Shown in pieces: positions 19,950 through 33,550 of a DNA stretch of 33,550 bases. How positions within the stretch are numbered: the stretch's first letter is position 1; each line of letters begins with the position of its first letter. The translations under genes were made by a program, and so were the position numbers. The DNA lies in the NCBI RefSeq assembly GCF_000172555.1, contig NZ_ABOX02000062.1, positions 1-33,550 on the forward strand, written 5' to 3'. This DNA comes from Pedosphaera parvula Ellin514. GTDB taxonomy: Bacteria; Verrucomicrobiota; Verrucomicrobiia; Limisphaerales; Pedosphaeraceae. Under the pieces are notes generated by a model. The model worked only from the letters and a program-made list of their open reading frames with translations. It made no database searches and was not told where the DNA came from.

Positions 19950-20126
19950 TTCTTCAAGTCGTTGAAAGTCAACGACAGCTCCCACTGTAGTCGCTCAAAA
20001 TGGGCCAACTGTGTAGTAAAGTGAGAGGATACGTGGTTTTGGAGTCACAATTCGCGCCAACTCCGCACCCACTCTCCCATTACTCCCTAACACAGTTGCT
20101 TCGGCTTGGCTTACCCTCGAAAGGCT

Positions 20127-21332
20127 ATGAGGTTGAAGCATCGCTACTGGCTCTACCAGCGAGAAGATGGCTGTTATTACCTGGAAGATACGCAGACCCG
20201 GAAGCGGGAGAGTCTGCGCACCAAAGACGCGGTTGAAGCCGAGCGATTGCGCGATGCCCGAAACCAATCGGTCGAACAACCGGCGCTGAATCTGGCGCTG
20301 GCCAAAACCTATCTCTCCGCCATTGATCCCAACCTGGCTGGTCGCACATGGGCCGTCGTGATCGAGGAATTTTGTAATCGAGGAAAAGAATCGACCCGCG
20401 CCCGTAACCAGCGAGCCATTGCCAGAAAGAATTTCGATCTCCTCCGCCACAAGAAGCTGGTGGAAACCACTGCCGACGACTTCCGCACGATTCTGAAGAC
20501 CATGGGCGCTTTCAATAACCACATTCTGCGGTGCCTGCACAACCTCGCCTTAGGACTGGGCTGGCTGCACTGGCCGATTATTCCACCCAAGCTCTGGCCG
20601 CAACCCAAGGAGAAGGAAAAACGGGGTATCACCCGAGAGGAGCATGCGAAGGTGCTCCAGAGCGAGCAGGACAGGGAGCGCCGACTGTATTATGAACTGC
20701 TCTGGGAAACGGGGGCCAGCCAGTCCGACGCCGCGCTGATGCGAGCGGAAAATATTGATTGGAATAAGCGCGAGCTTTTCTATTTGCGGAGCAAGACCGG
20801 TGAACCAGCTCGTTTGGTGATTGGTCTCCGCATGGAAGCCATCCTCAGGCAGTTGCCCGCCACAGGGCCGCTTTTTTGCAGGCAATCCGCTTTGAGTTCC
20901 TCCGATAGAGCCGCCGAGTTTAGCCGACGCTGTCGCGTTGTTGGCATCAAGGGGGTGAGTCTTCACTCCTACCGCTATGCCTGGGCACAACGGACGCTTG
21001 AGTCTGCCTATCCCGAACGGTATGCCCAGGAGGCGCTGGGACATGCGTCAAAAGCTGTGCACCGAATGTATGCCAAAAGCCGGAATGTGAAAATTCCACC
21101 CCTGGAAGATTATGAAAACCGTCCTGGCTCGGGCAATGTCATCCCGTTGCGGTTTGAGCAGCCGTGCGATCCCGCACCGACGTCGCAAGCAAGCTCGGTT
21201 GCTTTGGTGAAAGGACACTCGAAATACGGCGTTGCCTTTGATCACTTCTGGTTGACAAGTTTGATTCTTTTATTCCTGAATGTCTGCTTAAGCATTATTC
21301 CACGTTTAGGACTCCATTTTCGAGAACCGTAA
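20127..21332 (+). CDS. Tyrosine recombinase / site-specific integrase
   Basis: A 401-aa protein. A basic N-terminal part (RLKHRYWLYQREDG) and a helical SAM-like domain (~50-140) precede the catalytic domain. Visible active residues are H280 and R283 (LHSYRYAW), H306 (LGHASKAV) and the nucleophile Y315 (HRMYAKS). The first Arg of the family is not found: the matching stretch reads TGASQSD (residues 195-201), with Ser where Arg is normal. I recall the same reading in other verrucomicrobial integrases. The last ~55 residues are hydrophobic and unlike a recombinase end, and the stop lies inside the convergent GH76 gene (38-bp overlap). The ATG at 20127 is preferred over a TTG at 20106. Confidence 0.88.
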   Translation: MRLKHRYWLYQREDGCYYLEDTQTRKRESLRTKDAVEAERLRDARNQSVEQPALNLALAKTYLSAIDPNLAGRTWAVVIEEFCNRGKESTRARNQRAIARKNFDLLRHKKLVETTADDFRTILKTMGAFNNHILRCLHNLALGLGWLHWPIIPPKLWPQPKEKEKRGITREEHAKVLQSEQDRERRLYYELLWETGASQSDAALMRAENIDWNKRELFYLRSKTGEPARLVIGLRMEAILRQLPATGPLFCRQSALSSSDRAAEFSRRCRVVGIKGVSLHSYRYAWAQRTLESAYPERYAQEALGHASKAVHRMYAKSRNVKIPPLEDYENRPGSGNVIPLRFEQPCDPAPTSQASSVALVKGHSKYGVAFDHFWLTSLILLFLNVCLSIIPRLGLHFREP

Positions 21333-23039: not shown

Positions 23040-23593
23040 TTTTAACGGTTTGTTGTTTTGTTCTGATAATGAGTGAATGTGGAGTAGGCAAAAGTCGCAA
23101 GGTCATTGCTTTGACTCATTATTTGTGGCTGTGCGTGAAATGGTAACAGATAGCCCTGAACCCACAATCCCCTGAAACAGTAAGCGCTTTTCACCGATTT
23201 AAGGGATGCTGAGACCTTGTTTCAGCGATAAGCAAACGCCAAATCGTTTAACGTGCATGAACGGTTCGGCATGCGCTCACCGATGGTTTCCGTCGCTCAC
23301 TATTTGAAGCGACTCCACCACGCACAAGACAACCTTCCTGCGCATTTGAATTATGTTACACGAAAGTGTAATGGCTGGCCGCAAGGCTTGGTGTGAGACT
23401 CCTTTAATCCACTTGGGCTGATCGTGTGTCCAGCGTGGAAGCACTGAACTATGTCACCAACATCCGCACAAAATCGTTTTGAAAATGTCGCCCCTTCATC
23501 TGTCCTCGCAAGGCCGAATCTTATTCACGTGCGGATTGTTGCTGCTTGGTGTGGTCACAATTCAAGCGACCGAAGTTCTCGGACAAAGAGGTG
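23040..23593. other. 550-bp divergent intergenic region between the GH76 and ankyrin genes
   Basis: It must hold the promoter of the minus-strand GH76 gene and that of the ankyrin gene. A dyad TTACAC-GAAA-GTGTAA lies at 23356-23371 and could be an operator. A 38-codon frame at 23485-23601 is listed apart. No other gene, RNA or repeat was seen. Confidence 0.4.
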
Positions 23594-23601
23594 ATGCTTA
23601 A
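23485..23601 (+). CDS. Possible 38-aa leader-like ORF (may be a gene remnant)
   Basis: ATG at 23485 opens 38 codons: MSPLHLSSQGRILF, a hydrophobic core TCGLLLLGVVTIQAT, then EVLGQRGDA. This has the shape of a signal peptide with a cleavage region, yet nothing follows in frame after TAA at 23599. It overlaps the start of the ankyrin gene in another frame. It may be the left-over 5' end of an exported protein gene, a true small peptide, or chance. I cannot tell which. Confidence 0.2.
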   Translation: MSPLHLSSQGRILFTCGLLLLGVVTIQATEVLGQRGDA

Positions 23602-24184
23602 TCACAAGTTAGATACTGAAACCGCCATGTTATCGCTCGAACAAACCTTGTGGCATGCAGCTTGGAACGGCGACCTCATGCTCATCAAGCAGAGCCTTGA
23701 AGCTGGCGCACAGATCAATCTGCCCAGCATTAACAAGGCAAGGCCCTTTGAAGCCGCTGCCTACAATGGGCAAGCAGGCGCTTGCGTGCTCCTTCTCGAC
23801 GTTGGGGCTGATCCAAACGCCTTTGCCGAAGCTACCGGCGAGTCAGTGTTGCATCAGGTCATCACTAAAAGCAGCAACCTGCGCCGCACTCAAATCGTGA
23901 AAGCGCTCATTGCGGCAGGGGCGGATGTGACCCGCAGGACAAGCCCGCAGGTTCGCACTTTTTGTTTTGCTCGTGACGTTCGCACGCGTGGCGAAATGCC
24001 ACTTCACCGTGCTGCCGCTTATGGTGACGCAGAAATGATCGAGTCATGGATTCGAGCCGGAGCAGACAAGAGTGCAAAGGACATCCACGGCGAGTCTGCG
24101 CTGACTTGGGCGAGTTGGCACTTACGCGATCATGCAATTTTGAAACTTTTACTTTATGTTGAGTTTGAAGGATCAATTCCATAG
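23594..24184 (+). CDS. Ankyrin-repeat protein
   Basis: A 196-aa protein with no signal peptide. Ankyrin units are visible at ~LWHAAWNGDLMLIKQSLEAGAQIN, FEAAAYNGQAGACVLLLDVGADPN, ESVLHQVITKSSNLRRTQIVKALIAAGADV, MPLHRAAAYGDAEMIESWIRAGADKS and ALTWASWHLRDHAILKLLL. They make a protein-binding solenoid; no partner or enzyme domain is seen. An AGAGG just before the ATG at 23594 supports translation near there (23627 is another candidate). The end overlaps the first possible start of the next gene by 29 bp. Its role among the hydrolases is unknown; it may be unrelated cargo. Confidence 0.8.
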   Translation: MLNHKLDTETAMLSLEQTLWHAAWNGDLMLIKQSLEAGAQINLPSINKARPFEAAAYNGQAGACVLLLDVGADPNAFAEATGESVLHQVITKSSNLRRTQIVKALIAAGADVTRRTSPQVRTFCFARDVRTRGEMPLHRAAAYGDAEMIESWIRAGADKSAKDIHGESALTWASWHLRDHAILKLLLYVEFEGSIP

Positions 24185-25652
24185 TCCAACGGCAAAGCCC
24201 AACCAAGCGTTTAATCTGGGGTGTTCCACACGAACTGCCGCTCCGTTCCGTGTTGTTTGGATGATCTGGTTGGTTGCGCTGGGCGTTGCCTTTAGTAACT
24301 TCAAGGCTATCGCCTACACCGCTACGGACGCACAGACGATGGTCACGTCGTTTAACAACGCGTTCTATTTCACTACGAATGGGAATCTCGGTTACTTTCG
24401 CAACACCACCGACGGCGGGACAACATGGTTCTGGGGACGCGCGAACCAAATGGAGATGCTGATTGATCTCTACGAGCAGTCAAGCAACACGGTTTACCTC
24501 ACGCAATTCCAGCAACTCTACAACGGCTTCGTCTCCGACTACGGCACGGACTGGATTTGGAATGAGTTCAACGACGACATTATGTGGATGGTGATCGCGT
24601 GTTCGCGGGCGTACCAATACACCGCCAACACGACGTATCGCGACGTGGCCAGGAGCAATTTTGATTCGTGCTACGCACGAGCGTGGTCGAGCGATCTCGG
24701 AGGCGGGCTGTGGTGGAAGTCGCCGTTGAACACGTCGAAGAATGCGTGCGTGAATGGTCCGGCGGCCATCGCTTCGTATCTGATTTACCAAAACTACGGC
24801 GACACAAATTATCTCGCGAAGTCGGAAACCATTTATCAATGGGAGCGCGCGACGCTGGTGGACACGAACACGGGGCGCGTGTACGACAGTATCAATATTT
24901 CCGGGACGAAGGACATGACGCCGATCACCTACAACGAAGGCACGTTCATCGGCGCGGCGAATTTCCTCGGCTATACCAACGATGCAATTCTCGCGGCGAA
25001 TTACACAAAAAACAGCATGGGCACGGGCGGGCAGTTGCCGAATTACGAGGAGGATAGCGATCTTGGCGGCTTCAACGGCATCTTTATCCGCTGGATGGTG
25101 AAGTTCATGAACCAGCGCGGCCTGCAAAGCTCGTATCAACTTTGGTTGCAGCAAAACGCCAATGCTGCATGGAATGTGCGTCGCTCGTCCGACAATCTGT
25201 CCTGGTCCAAGTGGTGGGATCAAACTCCTGATGACGCGCGCTTTTCGTTCGGCTGTTGGGGCTCTGTTCTCATAGTTAATCTCGTGCCGCCGACACAGAA
25301 TCCCGGTGGTTCGGTTGTATTTCTGAATGCCAGCGATGCCGCGAACACGAGTAGTTTTGAAAGTGGCTTGAACTGGGCGGGAGGGGCGGCCCCGTTATGG
25401 ACGACGCATTACGTCGTGGCGGGCAGTCATACGTTGCGCACTCCGCAGGACCCCGCGCATCACACGTTTGCGGGCAGCTCGCTGACTTTGTCAAATGGTG
25501 GCGTGCTGGCTTTTAAGAATACGAGCGGAAGTCGCTATGTTTCCATAGGCACGGATTTGTTTCTCGACGGTGGCGAGGTGGCGAACTGGGCAGGCAACAG
25601 CGCATTGCTCGGCGGCAAAGTCACGTTGCAGTCGGGGCGGCGGGAAAATTGA
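24156..25652 (+). CDS. GH76-type glycoside hydrolase with start of an autotransporter-type beta repeat region (5' part of a split gene)
   Basis: 498 codons. An N-terminal basic stretch is followed by a hydrophobic core (MIWLVALGVAFSNF), giving a signal peptide to ~residue 50. The GH76 domain fills ~50-380: WNEFNDDIMWMV holds the catalytic pair D140-D141, and FWGRANQMEM, GGGLWWKS, NEGTFIGA and CWGSV are conserved in the fold. After residue ~385 starts a Gly/Asn/Thr-rich beta region (FLNASDAANTSS, FAGSSLTLSNGG) of the autotransporter-associated type. The frame stops with TGA at 25650-25652, and the same frame resumes directly afterwards, so this is likely one gene with the next entry. The exact start is uncertain (24156 or 24261). 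Confidence 0.82.
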   Translation: MLSLKDQFHSPTAKPNQAFNLGCSTRTAAPFRVVWMIWLVALGVAFSNFKAIAYTATDAQTMVTSFNNAFYFTTNGNLGYFRNTTDGGTTWFWGRANQMEMLIDLYEQSSNTVYLTQFQQLYNGFVSDYGTDWIWNEFNDDIMWMVIACSRAYQYTANTTYRDVARSNFDSCYARAWSSDLGGGLWWKSPLNTSKNACVNGPAAIASYLIYQNYGDTNYLAKSETIYQWERATLVDTNTGRVYDSINISGTKDMTPITYNEGTFIGAANFLGYTNDAILAANYTKNSMGTGGQLPNYEEDSDLGGFNGIFIRWMVKFMNQRGLQSSYQLWLQQNANAAWNVRRSSDNLSWSKWWDQTPDDARFSFGCWGSVLIVNLVPPTQNPGGSVVFLNASDAANTSSFESGLNWAGGAAPLWTTHYVVAGSHTLRTPQDPAHHTFAGSSLTLSNGGVLAFKNTSGSRYVSIGTDLFLDGGEVANWAGNSALLGGKVTLQSGRREN

Positions 25653-25682
25653 TCCGCAGGAAACTCGTTCAGCTTTCCGGCG

Positions 25683-28600
25683 TTGATCAGCGGGTTGGGT
25701 GCGTTGCGCATCGGCGCGGGCGCAAGTTCGCCGTTAAACGGCACGGTTACGCTTTCCGGGGTTAACTCTTATACCGGAGGCACAGTGATCGAAGCGCCGC
25801 ATACTTTGCAGATCAGTGCAGCGGGAACGCTGGGTAGCTCCGACGGGGCTTTGACTTTTACAAATGCCGGGCGCGGATTCGGCACTTTGAATCTGAACGG
25901 CTCGGATTTGGCGGTTGGGAATCTCAGCGGCGGGGGCGGAACGATTTGGAACAACATGAGCGGGACGAACAACGTTCTCACCATCGGCTCAGGCAACGCT
26001 TCAGGCGGCGTGTTTCAAGGCTTGATTTTGGCGGGGGCAGGGGGCCTGTCGCTGCGCAAGGCCGGCAACGGCACCAATGCGCTTACGGCGATGAATACGT
26101 TCGTGGGCAACACCACCATCTCCGGCGGTGCACTGCAACTGGGTGATGGAATCTCCCGCAACGGCGGAGTCACCGGTGAAATCACCAACAACGCCACAGT
26201 GATCTTTGCGAATCCCTCTACGCAGATATTCAACGGAACTGTCCGAGGCAGTGGGGCGCTGGTCAAGACCGGCGCAGGTCAGCTGACGTTGACGGGAGCG
26301 CAAGCATACACCGGCAACACCGCGGTCAACGCCGGAGTTTTTGCGCTGAGCGGGATCGGTTCAATCACCAACAGCGCCGAAATTTCCATCGCCAGCGGTG
26401 CGTCGTTCGATGTGCTTTCGCGCGCGGATCAAACATTGACGTTGAACGGCGGGCAACTGCTGCGCGGCAGTGGAACAATTATCGGGGCGTTGAGCGTTCC
26501 GGCGGGATCAGAGGTTCAGCCGGGTAGCTCGATGGGAACACTCACAGTTCAGGGCGACGTGACACTCAGCGGTTCGGTGCAGATGGAATTGAATCGCACC
26601 AACGCGCCGGCTTGTGACCAATTGAATTGCACCGGGACACTAACTGGTGGCGGGACGCTGACGGTGGTAAATCCTGGGCCGACGCTGCAAATGGGCGATA
26701 GTTTTCAATTGTTCAATCAGCCCGTTGCTGGGTTTGCGGCGGCTAATCTTCCGTCGCCCGGCCCCGGCAAAACCTGGACGAATCGTCTGGCGCTGGACGG
26801 AAGCATCGAAGTTATTGCCGCAAATGCGATTGCCAGTCCTGACGGTCAGGTGGTCGCGACGGTGGATGTGTGGAATAGCAATCTGACTTACTCCGTTTCG
26901 CATAGTGGCGTGCCCGTCATCGAGACGTCGGCGCTTGGGTTAACTGTGAACGGCACGAATCTTGGTGTCGGCGTCGTGATAATGGCAACCAACAATTACA
27001 CTGTGAACGAGGCGTTTGCTTCGCGTCATGGGATCCATGCGTTTGCTACAAACAATTATCAAGGGCAGGCCATCTCCATCTTTCATCCGGCTTCGGGGAT
27101 ATCATACGTGCTAAACGTGCGGACTTTCAATAATGGCGTCGCGCTGCGTTATGAACTGATGGGCGGCGCCACCAAGAATGTCACTGCTGAATCCACATCC
27201 TTCGTGATTCCTGAGAGCAGCGTTGTCTGGTCGCAGAGTGGAAACTCAGTTTACGAGGGCATGTATGGCAGTGCCGACATTACCGCCCTCGCGACCAACG
27301 CCACGCTTGGTCCGCCAGTAACGATTCAACTCTCCGGCCTGAACGGTTTCGTAGCGCTGACGGAGGCAAATCTCGGAGCATTTCCGAATCCGTATCTAAC
27401 CAAGACAGCCAACGCGCCGGGGCGCGAGTTGCGCGTGCCCTATCCGACGAATCAGGACAGCACAACCGGCGCGGTGATGAACGGTTCAGTTACGAATACA
27501 CCGTGGCACGTCATCATGGTTGGGGCGGATTTGAACGCGCTCGTGAACAATGACATGGTCGAGAGTTTGTCGCCTGCCCCGGATGCGGTGTTGTTTCCAC
27601 AAGGCGCAGCGACAAGTTGGGCGGCGCCGGGACGGTCGGTTTGGGATTGGTTGAATCCGCAGCCGGGTGGAATCACTTACACCAACGCGATGACGAATTC
27701 GTATTGGGCGTCGCAGTTGGGTTGGGAATACAACACGGTGGATGAAGGCTGGGCGAATTGGAATGGCGGCAATCCGTGGCCGCAAGTGCAAGCGGTGGTG
27801 AATTACTCGACCGCGCGCAGCGTGAAGGTGTTGTTGTGGAAGCAATCGTCGGAACTGAACTCGCAGGCGCAACGCACGGCGTTTTTCCAGCAACTCACCA
27901 ACTACGGTGTGGCGGGTTTCAAGGCGGACTTCTTTGATTACAGCTCGGTCAGCGCGGCAGCTAAGGAGCGCGTGAAACTGCAGGAAGACATTTTGCGGGA
28001 AGCGGCGGCGTATAAACTCGTCGCCAACTTTCACGGCACGTCCAAGCCGACCGGGCAATTCCGCACGTATCCAAACCTGCTGCAGTTTGAGGGTGTATTT
28101 GGCAAGGAACAATTCCCCGGGTCGTTCTCGCATTCAGTCCCGCCGTTTGCGCGATTTCTCGCCGGGCCGGCGGATTTCACGCCATTGGCGTTGCAAGGCG
28201 GATTGCGCGGTGCGCGGACGGTGCCATTTGAAGTCGCTTCGATGATTGCGATGCCCGGACCGATGATCACGATTGCCGAGCGTTCTGATGTGGTGGCGCA
28301 AAGCCCGTTTGCCTTGTTGATCAAAAAGATTCCCGCGATGTGGGACGAGACGATTGTTCTGGAGCAAAGTCAGATCGGGCAGACGGCGGTGTTCGCGCGC
28401 CGCAAAGGGACGGATTGGTTTGTCGCGGCGATGAATCCCGGTTCGGTACGAATCTGGAACATTCCGTTGAGCTTCCTAAGTTCCAATGTGACGTATCAGG
28501 CTGATTACATCCGGGACAACAGTTCCTATCTCGAAGTCGGCACGGTGATGCAAACGAATGTACTCGCGGTCTCGGCAGGGGTGGAAGGTGGAATCGTCGC

Positions 28601-29525
28601 ATGGTTTTATCAAAGTCCGACGAATGTTTATCAGCCACCCACGAATCAGCTGGCTGGGATTGGTTTTGATTTCGAGTCGCCGTTCAATTTGCCGGGCAAC
28701 GTCGCGAACACAACAGCCGTTGGCGCGACCAATGCCCAGTTCATTGGGCAGCAAGGCTGGTCGCAATCCACGAGTGGTGGCAGAGGTGCGATTGTTACCA
28801 CCACGGCCTCGGGTTTGTATCCAGGCGGTCAGGCGCTGGGTTCGGGTGATCCAGGCAACGCTTATATCGGCGCAAACACGAACGTGGTGCTGGGGAAAAA
28901 GTTCCGCTTCGACTTGTTCGCACCTGGCGGCAACAAGGCTGGTGTGGCCGGATTTACGGATCCGAATCACGATGGCTTGTTTTCGCAAAGCGAGAGCGGC
29001 GTGTTTGCGGGCGTGAATGACAGCGGCGGTATTTCCTATTTCGGTTTTCGCGATTTGATTGCGGGCGGGGCAACTTATTCCAGCGGCGTCGCGGCAAATA
29101 CTACTGACTGGTATCGCATCACAGTGACGCTGGACGATGCGACTCGCACCGCTACGATGGAGGTGACGAATCTGACAGCGGGTGGTTTGGCGGTGGATTT
29201 AAATGGTGCAACAGCGGGGACGGCGTTTTCCAGGACGTGGTCTGCAGGGCTGTGGGTTTCGCCCACAAACTTTGTCGGCACGCTGGCGCGGGCTTCGGGA
29301 ACGTTGTTGGTGGACAACATCATAGTGTTGCAACCCGCCGTGTCGCAGCCGGTGACGCTAGGGGTCCGATACGCGGGGAGCAATTTGCAACTGACCTGGA
29401 GCAGTGGATTTTTGCTCGAAGCCACGAATGTGCTCGGGCCGTGGACGACCAATCTTAGTGCGACTTCGCCCTTCATTGTGATTCCTAGCGTGCCGCAGAA
29501 GTTTTTCAAAGTGCAACTTCAATAG
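25683..29525 (+). CDS. Autotransporter-repeat/GH97 glycoside hydrolase with LamG-like tail (3' part of a split gene)
   Basis: 1280 codons. Residues ~1-365 are autotransporter-associated beta repeats (VTLSGVNSYTGGTVI, LTLTGAQAYTGNTAV). GH97 (alpha-glucosidase/alpha-galactosidase family) covers ~382-980: ASPDGQVVATVDVW and YSVSHSGVPVIETSALGL, then GWEYNTVDEGW (~682-690), GFKADFFDY (~745), ANFHGTSKPTG and FEGVFGKEQ (~802-810). Whether it retains or inverts cannot be read here. A LamG/concanavalin-like domain (~992-1216) and a C-terminal unit (LTWSSGFLLEATNV, KFFKVQLQ) follow. No good start exists: the frame is already open at 25653 after an in-frame TGA, and the first codon listed is a TTG in mid-domain. 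The sensor kinase follows at 43 bp. Confidence 0.85.
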   Translation: MISGLGALRIGAGASSPLNGTVTLSGVNSYTGGTVIEAPHTLQISAAGTLGSSDGALTFTNAGRGFGTLNLNGSDLAVGNLSGGGGTIWNNMSGTNNVLTIGSGNASGGVFQGLILAGAGGLSLRKAGNGTNALTAMNTFVGNTTISGGALQLGDGISRNGGVTGEITNNATVIFANPSTQIFNGTVRGSGALVKTGAGQLTLTGAQAYTGNTAVNAGVFALSGIGSITNSAEISIASGASFDVLSRADQTLTLNGGQLLRGSGTIIGALSVPAGSEVQPGSSMGTLTVQGDVTLSGSVQMELNRTNAPACDQLNCTGTLTGGGTLTVVNPGPTLQMGDSFQLFNQPVAGFAAANLPSPGPGKTWTNRLALDGSIEVIAANAIASPDGQVVATVDVWNSNLTYSVSHSGVPVIETSALGLTVNGTNLGVGVVIMATNNYTVNEAFASRHGIHAFATNNYQGQAISIFHPASGISYVLNVRTFNNGVALRYELMGGATKNVTAESTSFVIPESSVVWSQSGNSVYEGMYGSADITALATNATLGPPVTIQLSGLNGFVALTEANLGAFPNPYLTKTANAPGRELRVPYPTNQDSTTGAVMNGSVTNTPWHVIMVGADLNALVNNDMVESLSPAPDAVLFPQGAATSWAAPGRSVWDWLNPQPGGITYTNAMTNSYWASQLGWEYNTVDEGWANWNGGNPWPQVQAVVNYSTARSVKVLLWKQSSELNSQAQRTAFFQQLTNYGVAGFKADFFDYSSVSAAAKERVKLQEDILREAAAYKLVANFHGTSKPTGQFRTYPNLLQFEGVFGKEQFPGSFSHSVPPFARFLAGPADFTPLALQGGLRGARTVPFEVASMIAMPGPMITIAERSDVVAQSPFALLIKKIPAMWDETIVLEQSQIGQTAVFARRKGTDWFVAAMNPGSVRIWNIPLSFLSSNVTYQADYIRDNSSYLEVGTVMQTNVLAVSAGVEGGIVAWFYQSPTNVYQPPTNQLAGIGFDFESPFNLPGNVANTTAVGATNAQFIGQQGWSQSTSGGRGAIVTTTASGLYPGGQALGSGDPGNAYIGANTNVVLGKKFRFDLFAPGGNKAGVAGFTDPNHDGLFSQSESGVFAGVNDSGGISYFGFRDLIAGGATYSSGVAANTTDWYRITVTLDDATRTATMEVTNLTAGGLAVDLNGATAGTAFSRTWSAGLWVSPTNFVGTLARASGTLLVDNIIVLQPAVSQPVTLGVRYAGSNLQLTWSSGFLLEATNVLGPWTTNLSATSPFIVIPSVPQKFFKVQLQ

Positions 29526-29568: not shown

Positions 29569-32500
29569 ATGCAGCCTGCTGAACTCAACGACCGAGCTTT
29601 GCGCGCGCGCGTCTGTTGGCGGGGGAGACGTGGATGGGTGTTGCTGCTTTGTATTTTAGTTTTCTTCAGCGCTATTTTGAGGGGGAAGGCAGCAGAGCGG
29701 TTGAAAAAGGTAATACAGCAATACGCGCTGACTTCAGCGAATGATTTTCCGCAACGCGATCCACAGGACTGGCGGTTGCTCGGTTCAAACGATGGCGGCA
29801 AGACCTGGACGACGTTGGACACGCGCAAAAGCGAGGTGTTTCCCGAGCGCCATCAGCGGCGCGTGTTTGCGGTGAGCAAACCAGCGACGTTTGAGATTTA
29901 CCGGCTGCAAATTGATTTGGTTCGCGATCCCAAGGTGGCGAACTCGGTGCAGTTGGCCGAAATCGAACCCATGGGCGCGACGGAGAATGATCTCGAACCG
30001 ATTCCCATTTTCACCGATACCATCACTGCACAGGGCGACAATCCGCCGTCGGAGCTGGCGGTGAAATTGTTTGATGGCCGGAAGGAAACCAAGTGGCTCG
30101 ACAAACCGAGTAATCGGGAGACTTGCGCTTCATGGATTCAATGGCAGTACGCTGCGCCGACGGGAACGACGGTGACCAATATCAGTCAGTTGATCGCGCT
30201 GCGGGCGCGGGCTGGTGACGGTTATCGAGTGCAAATCGAAGCCGTGGCGGTGGGGCGCACGGGTGCAACTAACGAGTGGAGCATCGCGGATGCTTCGGGT
30301 TGCATGGAAATTTCGGCGTTGACCGGGGAGGAAAATTTGCAACCAGGGCAACCTGTCACGTTTTTGGGGTCAAGCGCGTGGAGTTCCCGAAAAGTTTGCC
30401 TTACAAATGGCTCGGTGCAAATGCGCGGGGAGAAAGCTGCCTCCAAGCCTGAGCAGATTGTCATGGAGCAACCACTGACAGCGCGGGAAAATTTAAAGTG
30501 GGTGGAGGTCGTGGGTGAGGTGCAGTATCGGCGTTTTGGCGACGGGGAAATTTCTTTCGATATTAGTGATGCGGGGGGCGCGATGCGGATTTACTGGCGT
30601 GGAGCGACAGATTCACTCTCATTGCCGCCGACCGGATCGCGCGTGACGGTGCGTGGCTTGTGTCGAGGTGCGTTCAATGATCAAGGGATGTGGGTGGCCG
30701 CTGGTTTATGGGCGGCGGGACCGGATGCTGTAACTGTAACGGGAACGCAATCACGAGATGGAAAAGTTCAGTCAGGTGGAGCAACTGCCAATGGAGCCGC
30801 GCCAGTTCCTGGCACATTGACGAAGATTGAACAGATTCGGCGATTGACGCAGGAGCAATTACAGCAGCGCCCGCATGTGATATTTCGCGGGGTGGTGACG
30901 GAATTGTTTGGCGCGTTCATGCAGGATGACACGGCAGGAGTAGAAGTGGCGTTCCAAGGCAATGAAAGCCGCAAAGTTACCGAGCCGGGCTACTATATCG
31001 AGGTGGAAGGCTGGGGTGGTTTGGGCGACGCCGGCAATCCGGTGGTGTCGGCAGATCGCGTCACGGTGCTGGGCAAAGGGAAATGGCCTGAGCCGCAGCG
31101 GATGTCGCTGAGTCAATTGATGAGCGGGCGGACGGACGCGCAATGGATTGAAATTGAGGGTGTGGTGCGTTCGACCGATGGCGCGCATCTGTTGTTGATC
31201 TGTTATGGACGTGAAGTGACGGCAAGCCTGAGTGCAGGCGCGGCGGGACTGGTAAAAAATTTGGTGGACGCGGCGGTGCGGGTGCGCGGCGTGGGTGTGA
31301 CGGCGCTGGATGATCGCGGTCGGATTCAAGGGCTCCATCTGTTAATTCCTTCACTGGAGAATGTGGACGTGATAGAGCCGCCGGTGAATCCTGCGACATT
31401 GCCAGTGCGACCGATTGGCAGCTTGCTCAGCTTGAGCGGGCCGCGTGAATCGTACCATCGCGTGAAGGTTGATGGTGTCGTGACGTTGCAGGAGAATCAG
31501 AAATTATTTCTTCAAGACACAAACGGGGGGGCGATGGCGATTTTGAAGGAAGACGTCGTGCTCGACGCGCGTTTCGGGCGGTCGCGCTGGTTATTCTGGC
31601 GCACGCAGCAAACAAATGCGCCTGTGCGGGCGGATTTGCGATTTGCGGCGGGCGACCGGGTGGAAGTCATTGGTTTTCCCGAGACACGGAATTACTCGCC
31701 GGTGCTGACTGAAGTGACTGTGAAGAAAATCAGCAGCGGAAATCCAGTGCAACTTTATGAAGCGACGGTAAACGGATTGAATGACGGGCGCGCGGATTCG
31801 CAATTGATTGCGGTGGAGGGGGTGCTGCTCGGACAAAACACCATCGGCGCGCAGGTGGTGATGGCGTTGGAGTGGAACGACCGGACGCTGCAGGTGCTCG
31901 TTCCGGTGCAAGAAGCGGCGGCACTGGCGATTGCTCCTGGCAGCCGGCTGCGCGTGACGGGGGTTTGTCAGGTTGATCCCGCACCGTACGCGGAACTAGG
32001 GCAACGCGTCGCGGCAGTGCGGATCCTGACGCGTTCGGCGGCGGACCTGGTGGTGTTGGCCAAACCATCATGGTGGACGGTGCAGCGGGCATTGATAATG
32101 ATGGGGGGGATGGCGTGCGTGATTTTAGCGGCGCTGGTCTGGATCAAGCAATTGCGGCGACAGGTTGAAGAGCGAACAGTGCAATTGACGATAGAAATCC
32201 AATTGCGTGAACAGACCGAGCGTCGCAGCGCGTTGGAGCAGGAACGATCGCGCATCGCGAAAGATTTGCATGACGACCTCGGCGCGAATCTCGCGCAGAT
32301 TGTTTTCTTGAGTCAGCGGGTGGAGGGACAGAGCGATGCGCAGGAAATGAATCGCTACTTTGGCCTTATTCCCGCCACGGCGCGGCGGACAATCCAGTCG
32401 CTCGATGAAATTGTCTGGGCCATTAATCCACGCCACGATTCGCTGGAAAGCCTGGCGAATTATCTCAGTCAGTTCGCGCAGGAGCATTTGACGCTGGCGC

Positions 32501-32889
32501 GCGTGCGATGTGTGCTGGACGTTCCTACGGTTTTGCCGGTAGTGCCATTGAGTGCGGAGATTCGGCATAATCTGCTGCTCGCCACGCGCGAGGCATTGCA
32601 GAACGCGGTCACTCATGCGGCTGCGACGGAAGTCCGTTTGATATTGCAACTGGACGAGTCGGGATTGAGCATCGCCATCGCGGACAATGGCAAGGGATTT
32701 GATCCGGGTTCGGTCTCACGGGATGGCAATGGGTTGCCGAACATGCGGCGGCGTCTGGAAAGCATCGGAGGACGGTTCCAACTCGACAATCAGCCTGGCA
32801 AGGGAACGACGGTGCGCTTGTTTGTGCCGAGCGAAGTGTTACACGGACGTGTAATTGGCGTAAACGGAGTTTCGAGACAAGAATCATGA
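29569..32889 (+). CDS. Sensor histidine kinase with a very large extracytoplasmic OB-like repeat sensor
   Basis: 1106 aa. A membrane segment at ~24-39 and another at ~840-860 (ALIMMGGMACVILAALVWI) bracket about 800 residues outside the cytosol. The sensor starts with a discoidin-like part (DWRLLGSNDGGKTWTTLDT) and then has five or six OB-like units, each with a G-V-V or V-G strand, an F-x-Q/D-D-x-G-G strand and a G-x-x-V-x-V-x-G strand (for example VDGVVTLQENQKLFLQDTNG). A coiled linker leads to HisKA_3 with H901 in KDLHDDLGA, and a HATPase with N1012 and ADNGKGF (D1039). It phosphorylates the regulator, whose ATG overlaps its TGA by 4 bp. The ligand is unknown, plausibly a glycan. Confidence 0.87.
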   Translation: MQPAELNDRALRARVCWRGRRGWVLLLCILVFFSAILRGKAAERLKKVIQQYALTSANDFPQRDPQDWRLLGSNDGGKTWTTLDTRKSEVFPERHQRRVFAVSKPATFEIYRLQIDLVRDPKVANSVQLAEIEPMGATENDLEPIPIFTDTITAQGDNPPSELAVKLFDGRKETKWLDKPSNRETCASWIQWQYAAPTGTTVTNISQLIALRARAGDGYRVQIEAVAVGRTGATNEWSIADASGCMEISALTGEENLQPGQPVTFLGSSAWSSRKVCLTNGSVQMRGEKAASKPEQIVMEQPLTARENLKWVEVVGEVQYRRFGDGEISFDISDAGGAMRIYWRGATDSLSLPPTGSRVTVRGLCRGAFNDQGMWVAAGLWAAGPDAVTVTGTQSRDGKVQSGGATANGAAPVPGTLTKIEQIRRLTQEQLQQRPHVIFRGVVTELFGAFMQDDTAGVEVAFQGNESRKVTEPGYYIEVEGWGGLGDAGNPVVSADRVTVLGKGKWPEPQRMSLSQLMSGRTDAQWIEIEGVVRSTDGAHLLLICYGREVTASLSAGAAGLVKNLVDAAVRVRGVGVTALDDRGRIQGLHLLIPSLENVDVIEPPVNPATLPVRPIGSLLSLSGPRESYHRVKVDGVVTLQENQKLFLQDTNGGAMAILKEDVVLDARFGRSRWLFWRTQQTNAPVRADLRFAAGDRVEVIGFPETRNYSPVLTEVTVKKISSGNPVQLYEATVNGLNDGRADSQLIAVEGVLLGQNTIGAQVVMALEWNDRTLQVLVPVQEAAALAIAPGSRLRVTGVCQVDPAPYAELGQRVAAVRILTRSAADLVVLAKPSWWTVQRALIMMGGMACVILAALVWIKQLRRQVEERTVQLTIEIQLREQTERRSALEQERSRIAKDLHDDLGANLAQIVFLSQRVEGQSDAQEMNRYFGLIPATARRTIQSLDEIVWAINPRHDSLESLANYLSQFAQEHLTLARVRCVLDVPTVLPVVPLSAEIRHNLLLATREALQNAVTHAAATEVRLILQLDESGLSIAIADNGKGFDPGSVSRDGNGLPNMRRRLESIGGRFQLDNQPGKGTTVRLFVPSEVLHGRVIGVNGVSRQES

Positions 32890-33550
32890 AAATGGTCAAC
32901 GCCAAATCAGAACCGGCTCCCGACGCGACCGTATTGCGACCGGTGCGCGTTTGCGTGGTGGAAGACGACAATGTGGCGCGCGAGCAGCTCTCGCATCAGT
33001 TGCAGCAGGCGAATGGCTTTACGTTTGTGAGCTGCCATAGGTCAGCGGAAAATGCGCTGGAGGAAATCCCGCGCCACAAGCCCGACGTGGTTTTGATGGA
33101 CATCAATCTGCCGAAGATGAGCGGAATTGATTGCGTACGGCATCTCAAGGCGCTACTGCCCGGCACACAATTCGTGATGCTCACGGTTTATGAAGATGCG
33201 GATGCGATCTTCAAATCGTTGCTGGCAGGGGCAGTTGGCTATCTGCTCAAAGGACGTTCTGCAACTGGCGACAAATTACTGGAAGCCTTACGCGATGCGG
33301 GGCGAGGCGGTTCACCGTTGAACAGTTTGATCGCGCGCAAGATTGTGCAGCATTTTCATCATCAACCGTCACGTTCCGGCAAGGAGCATCCTCTCTCAGT
33401 GCGCGAACGCGAGGTGTTGGAGTTGCTTTCAAAGGGGCTGCCATACAAAGAAATTGCCGACATGCTTGGCGTGAACATCGAGACGGTTCGCAAGCATTGT
33501 CACAATATCTATGAAAAACTTCAGGTCAGTTCGCGGACGGAAGCGGTGGT
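32886..33550 (+). CDS. NarL/FixJ-family response regulator (3' end cut by window)
   Basis: 221 codons are visible; the gene runs off the edge. The receiver domain has acidic E26-D27, phosphoacceptor D72 (VVLMDINLP), T100 (FVMLTVYED) and K122 (GYLLKG). The LuxR-type helix-turn-helix at the end reads LSVREREVLELLSKGL, KEIADMLGV and ETVRKHCHNIYEKL. It is a DNA-binding transcription regulator switched by the kinase encoded just upstream; ATGA overlap (32886-32889) indicates translational coupling. Targets could include the GH76/GH97 gene, but no binding site is known. Confidence 0.93.
   Translation, partial: MKMVNAKSEPAPDATVLRPVRVCVVEDDNVAREQLSHQLQQANGFTFVSCHRSAENALEEIPRHKPDVVLMDINLPKMSGIDCVRHLKALLPGTQFVMLTVYEDADAIFKSLLAGAVGYLLKGRSATGDKLLEALRDAGRGGSPLNSLIARKIVQHFHHQPSRSGKEHPLSVREREVLELLSKGLPYKEIADMLGVNIETVRKHCHNIYEKLQVSSRTEAV

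Follow-up and report, generated by a model that had tools for sequence, protein, structure and literature searches.

A Pedosphaera parvula sensor kinase with tandem OB folds and a circularly permuted CBM32 domain, and its possible role in sensing alpha-mannose-rich glycans

The window analysed here is one complete contig of 33,550 bases in the 7.4 Mb genome (102 contigs) of Pedosphaera parvula Ellin514, and towards its right end it encodes a sensor kinase (29569-32889, forward strand, 1106 residues) followed by a LuxR-type response regulator. The large outside region of this kinase begins with a CBM32/discoidin domain that is circularly permuted and continues with six predicted OB folds, and on balance we think that kinase and regulator sense an alpha-mannose-rich glycan and induce the adjacent genes of glycoside hydrolase families GH76 and GH97. 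In such a system the permuted CBM32 domain would lie at the tip, outside the inner membrane, and bind a mannose ligand (fragments of fungal alpha-mannan or high-mannose N-glycan), and three tandem two-OB units would form a long stalk or receptor. These units would carry the change through a PxWWT segment and the second membrane helix to the HisKA_3 kinase, which would phosphorylate the regulator encoded beside it, and the phosphorylated regulator would in turn induce the GH76-GH97 genes. Positions of all features are collected in Table 1; other loci are denoted by L and a number.

About 800 residues lie between the two hydrophobic segments of the kinase, as the original prediction had it, the segments being called from hydropathy alone. 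The prediction assigned the whole of 29569-33550 to the kinase, which was too generous, since 32886-33550 belongs to the response regulator, itself truncated by the contig end; the start of the regulator gene overlaps the kinase stop. The HisKA_3, HATPase_c, receiver and GerE domains all pass the Pfam cut-offs, and H901 and N1012 are nearly invariant in 41 proteins with OB arrays (see below). Judged from these domains, the two genes encode a two-component system consisting of a HisKA_3 kinase with a LuxR-type partner, between which phosphotransfer is predicted. A Pfam search of the kinase protein gave no match to Reg_prop or Y_Y_Y at E-values up to 1, and the beta-propeller sensor that had been named as the alternative to OB folds is thus rejected.

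The chain of OB folds that had been proposed for the outside region is borne out both by structure prediction and by profile comparison. An AlphaFold2 model of residues 42-838, made with 33 sequences, has a mean predicted local distance difference test score (pLDDT) of 77.4 and a predicted template modelling score (pTM) of 0.57, at which single domains are credible although their relative placement is not. Solved OB folds (AsnRS, RPA, HIN and YgiW) were placed by VIA-align 2 on four stretches of this model (model residues ~250-355, 375-463, 569-685 and 688-797) with Z scores of 10.0-11.7. OB1 and OB4 have no row of their own among the 50 VIA matches listed, and their assignment rests on profile similarity to the other OBs and on predicted strands. 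When the six profiles were compared using hhalign, the odd-numbered domains OB1, OB3 and OB5 were found to be mutually alike (probability 96.8-99.2 %), as were the even-numbered OB2, OB4 and OB6 (97.7-98.9 %), whereas the nine pairs of different parity ranged from 8.2 to 90.4 %; the highest value among 60 column-shuffled controls was 7.5 %. Since domains of the same parity are alike, we read the array as a two-OB unit repeated in three copies, and conclude from model and profiles that residues 201-838 are predicted to be six OB folds. The Pfam OB model (tRNA_anti-codon, PF01336) falls below its cut-off in the window protein (23.2 versus 27 bits), although an ortholog fragment (L120) scores 35.5 bits. 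A conserved P-x-W-W-T motif ends OB6, immediately before the membrane segment. We note that OB5 contains an insertion of about 27 residues (residues 664-691, ~31558-31641) with conserved tryptophans and low model confidence, which is present in six orthologs and partly in L014 among the 33 alignment rows. Foldseek matches of the whole model to DDB1 and similar large chains were set aside as noise (root-mean-square deviation, rmsd, >20).

A discoidin-like start had also been predicted, and this is correct, yet the domain is permuted. A phmmer search aligned residues 48-139 with each of the two CBM32 domains in the GH92 alpha-1,2-mannosidase of Neobacillus novalis (PDB 7nsn; whole-sequence E-value 1.4e-27, 37-38 % identity), and residues 151-178 weakly match 7nsn residues 94-121 (own E-value 3.5). 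The latter are the start of the first CBM32 domain and precede the other part in 7nsn, so that the order is reversed in the kinase, in which the second half of the domain (h2) stands before the first half (h1); there is no space for a first half ahead of residue 42. The Pfam F5/8 type C model reaches 16.1 bits in the window protein, below its gathering score of 28.2. When the CBM32 unit was modelled alone (pLDDT 85.9, pTM 0.83, with block means of 89-94 at model residues 111-150), its best structural match was again 7nsn (Foldseek E-value 8.7e-7; VIA Z 10.1 over 92 residues, rmsd 1.5), covering h2, the last part of the 7nsn domain and the first in the kinase.

The order of the halves was also compared among relatives with half-specific hidden Markov models (HMMs), leaving out ORFs (open reading frames) below 20 bits and near-identical ORFs. 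All 18 listed OB proteins that have both halves, in one, two or three copies, show the second-then-first order, whereas among the remaining 17 listed ORFs that contain both, 15 show the first-then-second order, including L133, in which the halves are about 170 residues apart; the second half occurs alone in five further ORFs. The two exceptions are L082, where a neighbouring frame has OB segments, and L139, which starts outside the fetched stretch, as do 11 of the 17 non-OB ORFs, and some h1 matches in this comparison are weak (L141 5, L139 8 and L143 10 bits). In tandem OB proteins 34-44 residues lie between units, compared with 3-4 between neighbouring halves in the majority of normal-order ORFs. 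It is very improbable, we believe, that no permuted domain exists and that h2 and h1 are merely two broken halves, or h1 a part of the first OB domain. Such a reading could draw on the low confidence of h1 in the whole-region model (block means of 48-63 at model residues 101-160) and on the VIA rows for the CBM32 model, which cover mostly residues 3-103, so that h1 is not convincingly covered by any alignment to a CBM32 structure. It is at odds, however, with the confident prediction of the unit alone, with the tandem arrays, in which h2-h1 recurs as a unit in two or three copies, and with the joint invariance of the candidate contacts in both halves (see below). We therefore regard the CBM32/discoidin domain of the kinase as circularly permuted. 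The large proteins L137, L139 and L141 contain tandem CBM32-like arrays of many copies at a spacing of about 145 residues, and arrays of this type may be a source of the permutation through loss of a leading half.

A ligand for this domain is suggested by the paper on 7nsn (PMC10167667), according to which the N-terminal CBM32 domain of that enzyme holds a mannose analogue via Glu105, Asp148 and Arg152, with Phe122 stacking on it. The first three residues align with E162, D59 and R63 of the kinase, and the corresponding residues are invariant in all 13 single copies and all five last copies of the permuted domain (18/18). Since 35 of the 171 positions are invariant over these 18 copies, the chance that three given positions all belong to them is about 0.008, a figure that is only a guide because the 13 include close relatives (the window and L068; L074 and L078). 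Of the five first copies in tandem arrays, none retains R63 or E162 and one has also lost D59; of two middle copies, one retains all three residues and the other has D59 changed. Each of the kinases or fragments concerned (L052, L053, L080, L081 and L082) has two or three permuted CBM32 units, of which the first lacks two or three of the candidate contacts. Eight normal-order CBM32 relatives were scanned, all truncated by locus ends except L057; a GH38 domain is present on L057 and L126, and L128 matches GH99 with 31.4 bits, just short of the cut-off of 33.

The gene neighbourhoods of orthologs provide a second line of evidence. The ortholog set comprises 13 loci, full-length or nearly so (the window and L068-L079), and in 11 of them, the window included, the kinase is followed by a regulator similar to that of the window; L074 ends and L077 has an AraC-type regulator. 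The L077 ortholog (L077:9725-14978) also differs in giving no HisKA_3 match, and a GH92 gene adjoins it. Families acting on mannan or N-glycan (GH76, GH85, GH47 or GH92) are found near 7 of the 13 loci, namely GH76 near the window, L068 and L069, GH85 with GH76 near L079, GH47 near L072, and GH92 near L075 and L077. Within six genomes, GH76 or GH92 lies within 20 kb of 4/6 orthologs versus 0/28 other OB loci among the matches listed (one-sided Fisher P=0.0003); this value too is a guide only, because contigs are uneven, orthologs share ancestry and the other OB loci are those among the matches listed. The kinase does stand beside glycan enzymes, as had been noted, and the earlier guess of an oligosaccharide or polymer ligand is supported by this context, which points to alpha-mannan or high-mannose N-glycan and not to starch or pullulan, which had been named beside mannan as test substrates.

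Several observations speak against a mannose-type ligand. The correspondence of E162 depends on the weak local alignment described above, and the position of Phe122 is taken by Lys179, one residue past the aligned stretch, in a column that is variable among relatives (K, R, W, F and others). Nine of the 35 invariant positions are changed in at least four of the five first copies, which indicates general divergence, so that the loss of contacts in these copies does not single out the sugar site. The normal-order relatives L132 and L134 are arylsulfotransferase-like and L135 is lectin-like, and L131 and L136 carry other domains, fn3 being among the non-mannan types seen. The authors of the 7nsn structure were unable to demonstrate binding by the CBM32 in solution, and they describe CBM32 domains as binding many sugars (PMC10167667). 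Six of the 13 ortholog loci (L070, L071, L073, L074, L076 and L078) have no mannan-type enzyme among the ORFs scanned, which are only part of their ORFs; L073 and L074 are on contigs of 6.7 and 5.3 kb, GxGYxYP is found at L076 and L078, and the neighbours of L071 are GH95 and GH36. GH97 is not a mannan family, and the best NCBIfam match of the window's GH97 is an alpha-galactosidase model, albeit below cut-off (183 of 800 bits). A search of the window's genome gave no GH92 match, although GH76 genes occur at five places in it. It could be argued from the alpha-galactosidase match, the L071 neighbours, the breadth of CBM32 specificities and the missing GH92 that the system serves another glycan, such as an alpha-galactoside or fucoside, and that the mannan enzymes are incidental; we consider this unlikely, given that four mannan or N-glycan families recur near the orthologs and that the candidate contacts agree with the mannose-analogue site as described for 7nsn.

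The OB array is a recurrent module in the phylum and is not peculiar to the window kinase. The original prediction treated the design as an unusual one, and a one-protein oddity can be rejected, as a four-OB core profile has matches in 55 of the 387 Verrucomicrobiota genomes sampled, a phylum in many of whose kinases the core precedes a membrane segment; protein numbers are lower bounds, no more than four candidates having been scored in each genome. A single-protein search with the outside region matched 42 of 58 genomes, its own included, with CBM32-only matches counted too, and a whole-outside-region search (51/240 phylum genomes), which likewise mixes OB and CBM32-only matches, was not used as a count of OB sensors. 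With HMMs of the six OBs, two or more OBs were detected in 75 ORFs of the collected loci after removal of ORFs sharing their first 60 OB residues, one protein (L002/L043) nevertheless entering the count twice; 35 of the ORFs have exactly four OBs and the others between two and nine, some of them being truncated at the end of a locus. Among 41 uncut OB proteins (the window's and 40 others) HATPase_c is found in 40, HisKA_3 in 37, PA14 in 10, PAS in five and F5/8 type C in two. A plasmid search found an OB array in one of 72,556 records, in WP_114211360.1 of Acidisarcina polymorpha (Acidobacteriota; plasmid pACPOL4, L145:3884-5890), which is annotated as a diguanylate cyclase and combines OB3-OB6 with a PFWT motif, a hydrophobic segment and GGDEF, the last being its only Pfam match. 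The check for spread outside the Verrucomicrobiota consisted of this plasmid search and of DNA similarity in phages. A GH27 gene lies near the Acidisarcina polymorpha locus.

These distributions bear on the strongest alternative, that the OB array itself binds the ligand (an oligosaccharide, peptide or nucleic acid fragment) and that the CBM32-like domain does no more than anchor or present the polymer. Binding of oligomers is common among OB folds, and since the core occurs, in most of the 41 kinases scanned and in the diguanylate cyclase, without a recognized sugar-binding tip, it must sense or transmit something by itself. However, eight of the nine invariant columns in the OB core are glycine and their conservation thus looks structural, no ligand site was identified in the OB core, and we hold ligand binding by the array to be possible but rather unlikely compared with recognition of a mannose-rich glycan by the permuted tip.

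The window's genome also encodes seven paralogs of the kinase (L047-L051, L054 and L056) that have Reg_prop and Y_Y_Y instead of OBs, and four (L043-L046; L044 is the same as L003) with OB arrays, two of these with PA14. In a kinase-domain tree of 60 rows, nine rows that are orthologs group in a single clade (100/100) close to both the OB and the Reg_prop kinds, the label Reg_prop of most non-OB rows coming from separate domain searches; the remaining orthologs are absent from the tree, apart from L012 (the same protein as L073), an ortholog by its outside region whose kinase domain groups with the OB paralog L002. OB and other kinases are intermixed, such that five changes are needed, two of them forced by starred branches, and some forks are open. 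This pattern in the sequences suggests that OB and other sensors may have been exchanged between kinases. We lean towards the view that tandem two-OB arrays constitute a large, hitherto undescribed class of extracytoplasmic sensors that are exchangeable with beta-propellers and between outputs such as diguanylate cyclases, and in which glycan-binding tips (permuted CBM32 or PA14) set specificity. No description of OB-array sensor kinases or of a circularly permuted CBM32 was found in the literature search, which covered titles and the starts of abstracts of open-licence papers, among the matches listed.

The kinase ORF starts 43 bases after the end of an ORF encoding PATR repeats and GH97, upstream of which lies the GH76 ORF, and the three genes may be co-transcribed. 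The GH76 and PATR-GH97 ORFs (24156-29525) correspond to a single ORF of 1809 residues in a genome of the same genus (L068:4405-9834), with 1618 of 1789 aligned residues identical; the split in the window may reflect either an assembly error or a real disruption. An ankyrin-repeat ORF is located at 23546-24184 and a phage-integrase family ORF at 20106-21332, about 3 kb upstream of the GH76 ORF. A phage origin was considered and is unsupported, a phage collection containing no similar DNA.

Table 1. Positions of features in the window, with the evidence for each
Feature	Position	Strand	Evidence
GH76 ORF (alpha-1,6-mannanase family)	24156..25652	+	PF03663 E 9.2e-29; in frame with GH97 ORF
PATR repeats and GH97 ORF	25683..29525	+	PF14508, PF10566, PF14509, PF12951
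First hydrophobic segment (signal anchor or signal peptide), residues ~22-40	29632..29688	+	Kyte-Doolittle windows >1.6
CBM32/discoidin second half (h2), placed first, residues 42-140	29692..29988	+	phmmer to 7nsn; Foldseek/VIA; BLAST and HMM order tests
Predicted mannose contact D59, in h2	29743-29745	+	7nsn alignment
Predicted mannose contact R63, in h2	29755-29757	+	7nsn alignment
CBM32/discoidin first half (h1), placed second, residues 143-196	29995..30156	+	Weak 7nsn match; order tests
Predicted mannose contact E162, in h1	30052-30054	+	7nsn alignment
OB1 (odd type), residues 201-303	30169..30477	+	HMM; hhalign to OB3/OB5; strands in model
OB2 (even type), residues 304-393	30478..30747	+	VIA Z 10.4 to RPA14/32 structure; PF01336 23.2 bits
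OB3 (odd), residues 415-507	30811..31089	+	VIA Z up to 11.0; HMM
OB4 (even), residues 508-607	31090..31389	+	hhalign to OB2/OB6 98.8-98.9 %; HMM
OB5 (odd), residues 608-727, with ortholog-specific Trp-containing insertion	31390..31749	+	VIA Z 10.0 to Ten1; HMM; alignment
OB6 (even), residues 728-838	31750..32082	+	VIA Z 11.7 to AsnRS OB domains; alignment
Second membrane segment, residues 841-859	32089..32145	+	Hydropathy
HisKA_3 dimerization/phosphoacceptor domain; His901 at 32269-32271	32242..32433	+	PF07730 E 1.3e-7
HATPase_c catalytic domain	32572..32832	+	PF02518 E 2e-12
Response regulator, receiver and LuxR/GerE, truncated by contig end	32886..33548	+	PF00072, PF00196

The Verrucomicrobiota are thought to be major degraders of soil polysaccharides, and little is known of how they sense polymers. 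OB-array sensors are a class that can be counted in genomes, and the proposed alpha-mannan ligand is tied to three named residues, D59, R63 and E162. The circular permutation, a natural variant of a widespread sugar-binding fold, may reveal how a shared OB stalk is fitted with specificity tips, and if the proposal is true the substrate of uncharacterized gene clusters would be predictable from the sensor tip.

Among known systems, the solved OB folds of AsnRS, RPA, HIN-200 and YgiW share their fold with the kinase OBs, which differ in being tandem two-OB repeats located outside the membrane on a signalling protein. The Acidisarcina polymorpha protein shares with the kinase the OB3-OB6 array, a hydrophobic segment and, as PFWT, a counterpart of the motif before the membrane, and differs in its phylum, in its output and in that CBM32 was not found in it. 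The 7nsn CBM32 domain resembles h2 and has the same candidate contacts D, R and E, whereas in the kinase the halves are swapped and a lysine takes the Phe122 position, and the 7nsn domain is carried by an enzyme. A parallel in overall design is offered by the Reg_prop/Y_Y_Y sensor kinases, which share the large outside region and a HisKA_3 kinase in the same tree, although the window kinase has an OB array in place of the beta-propeller and Y_Y_Y. Related to these are the hybrid two-component systems of Bacteroides, whose role in glycan sensing is known; those proteins are hybrids with AraC-type output, whereas the window kinase has a separate LuxR-type regulator.

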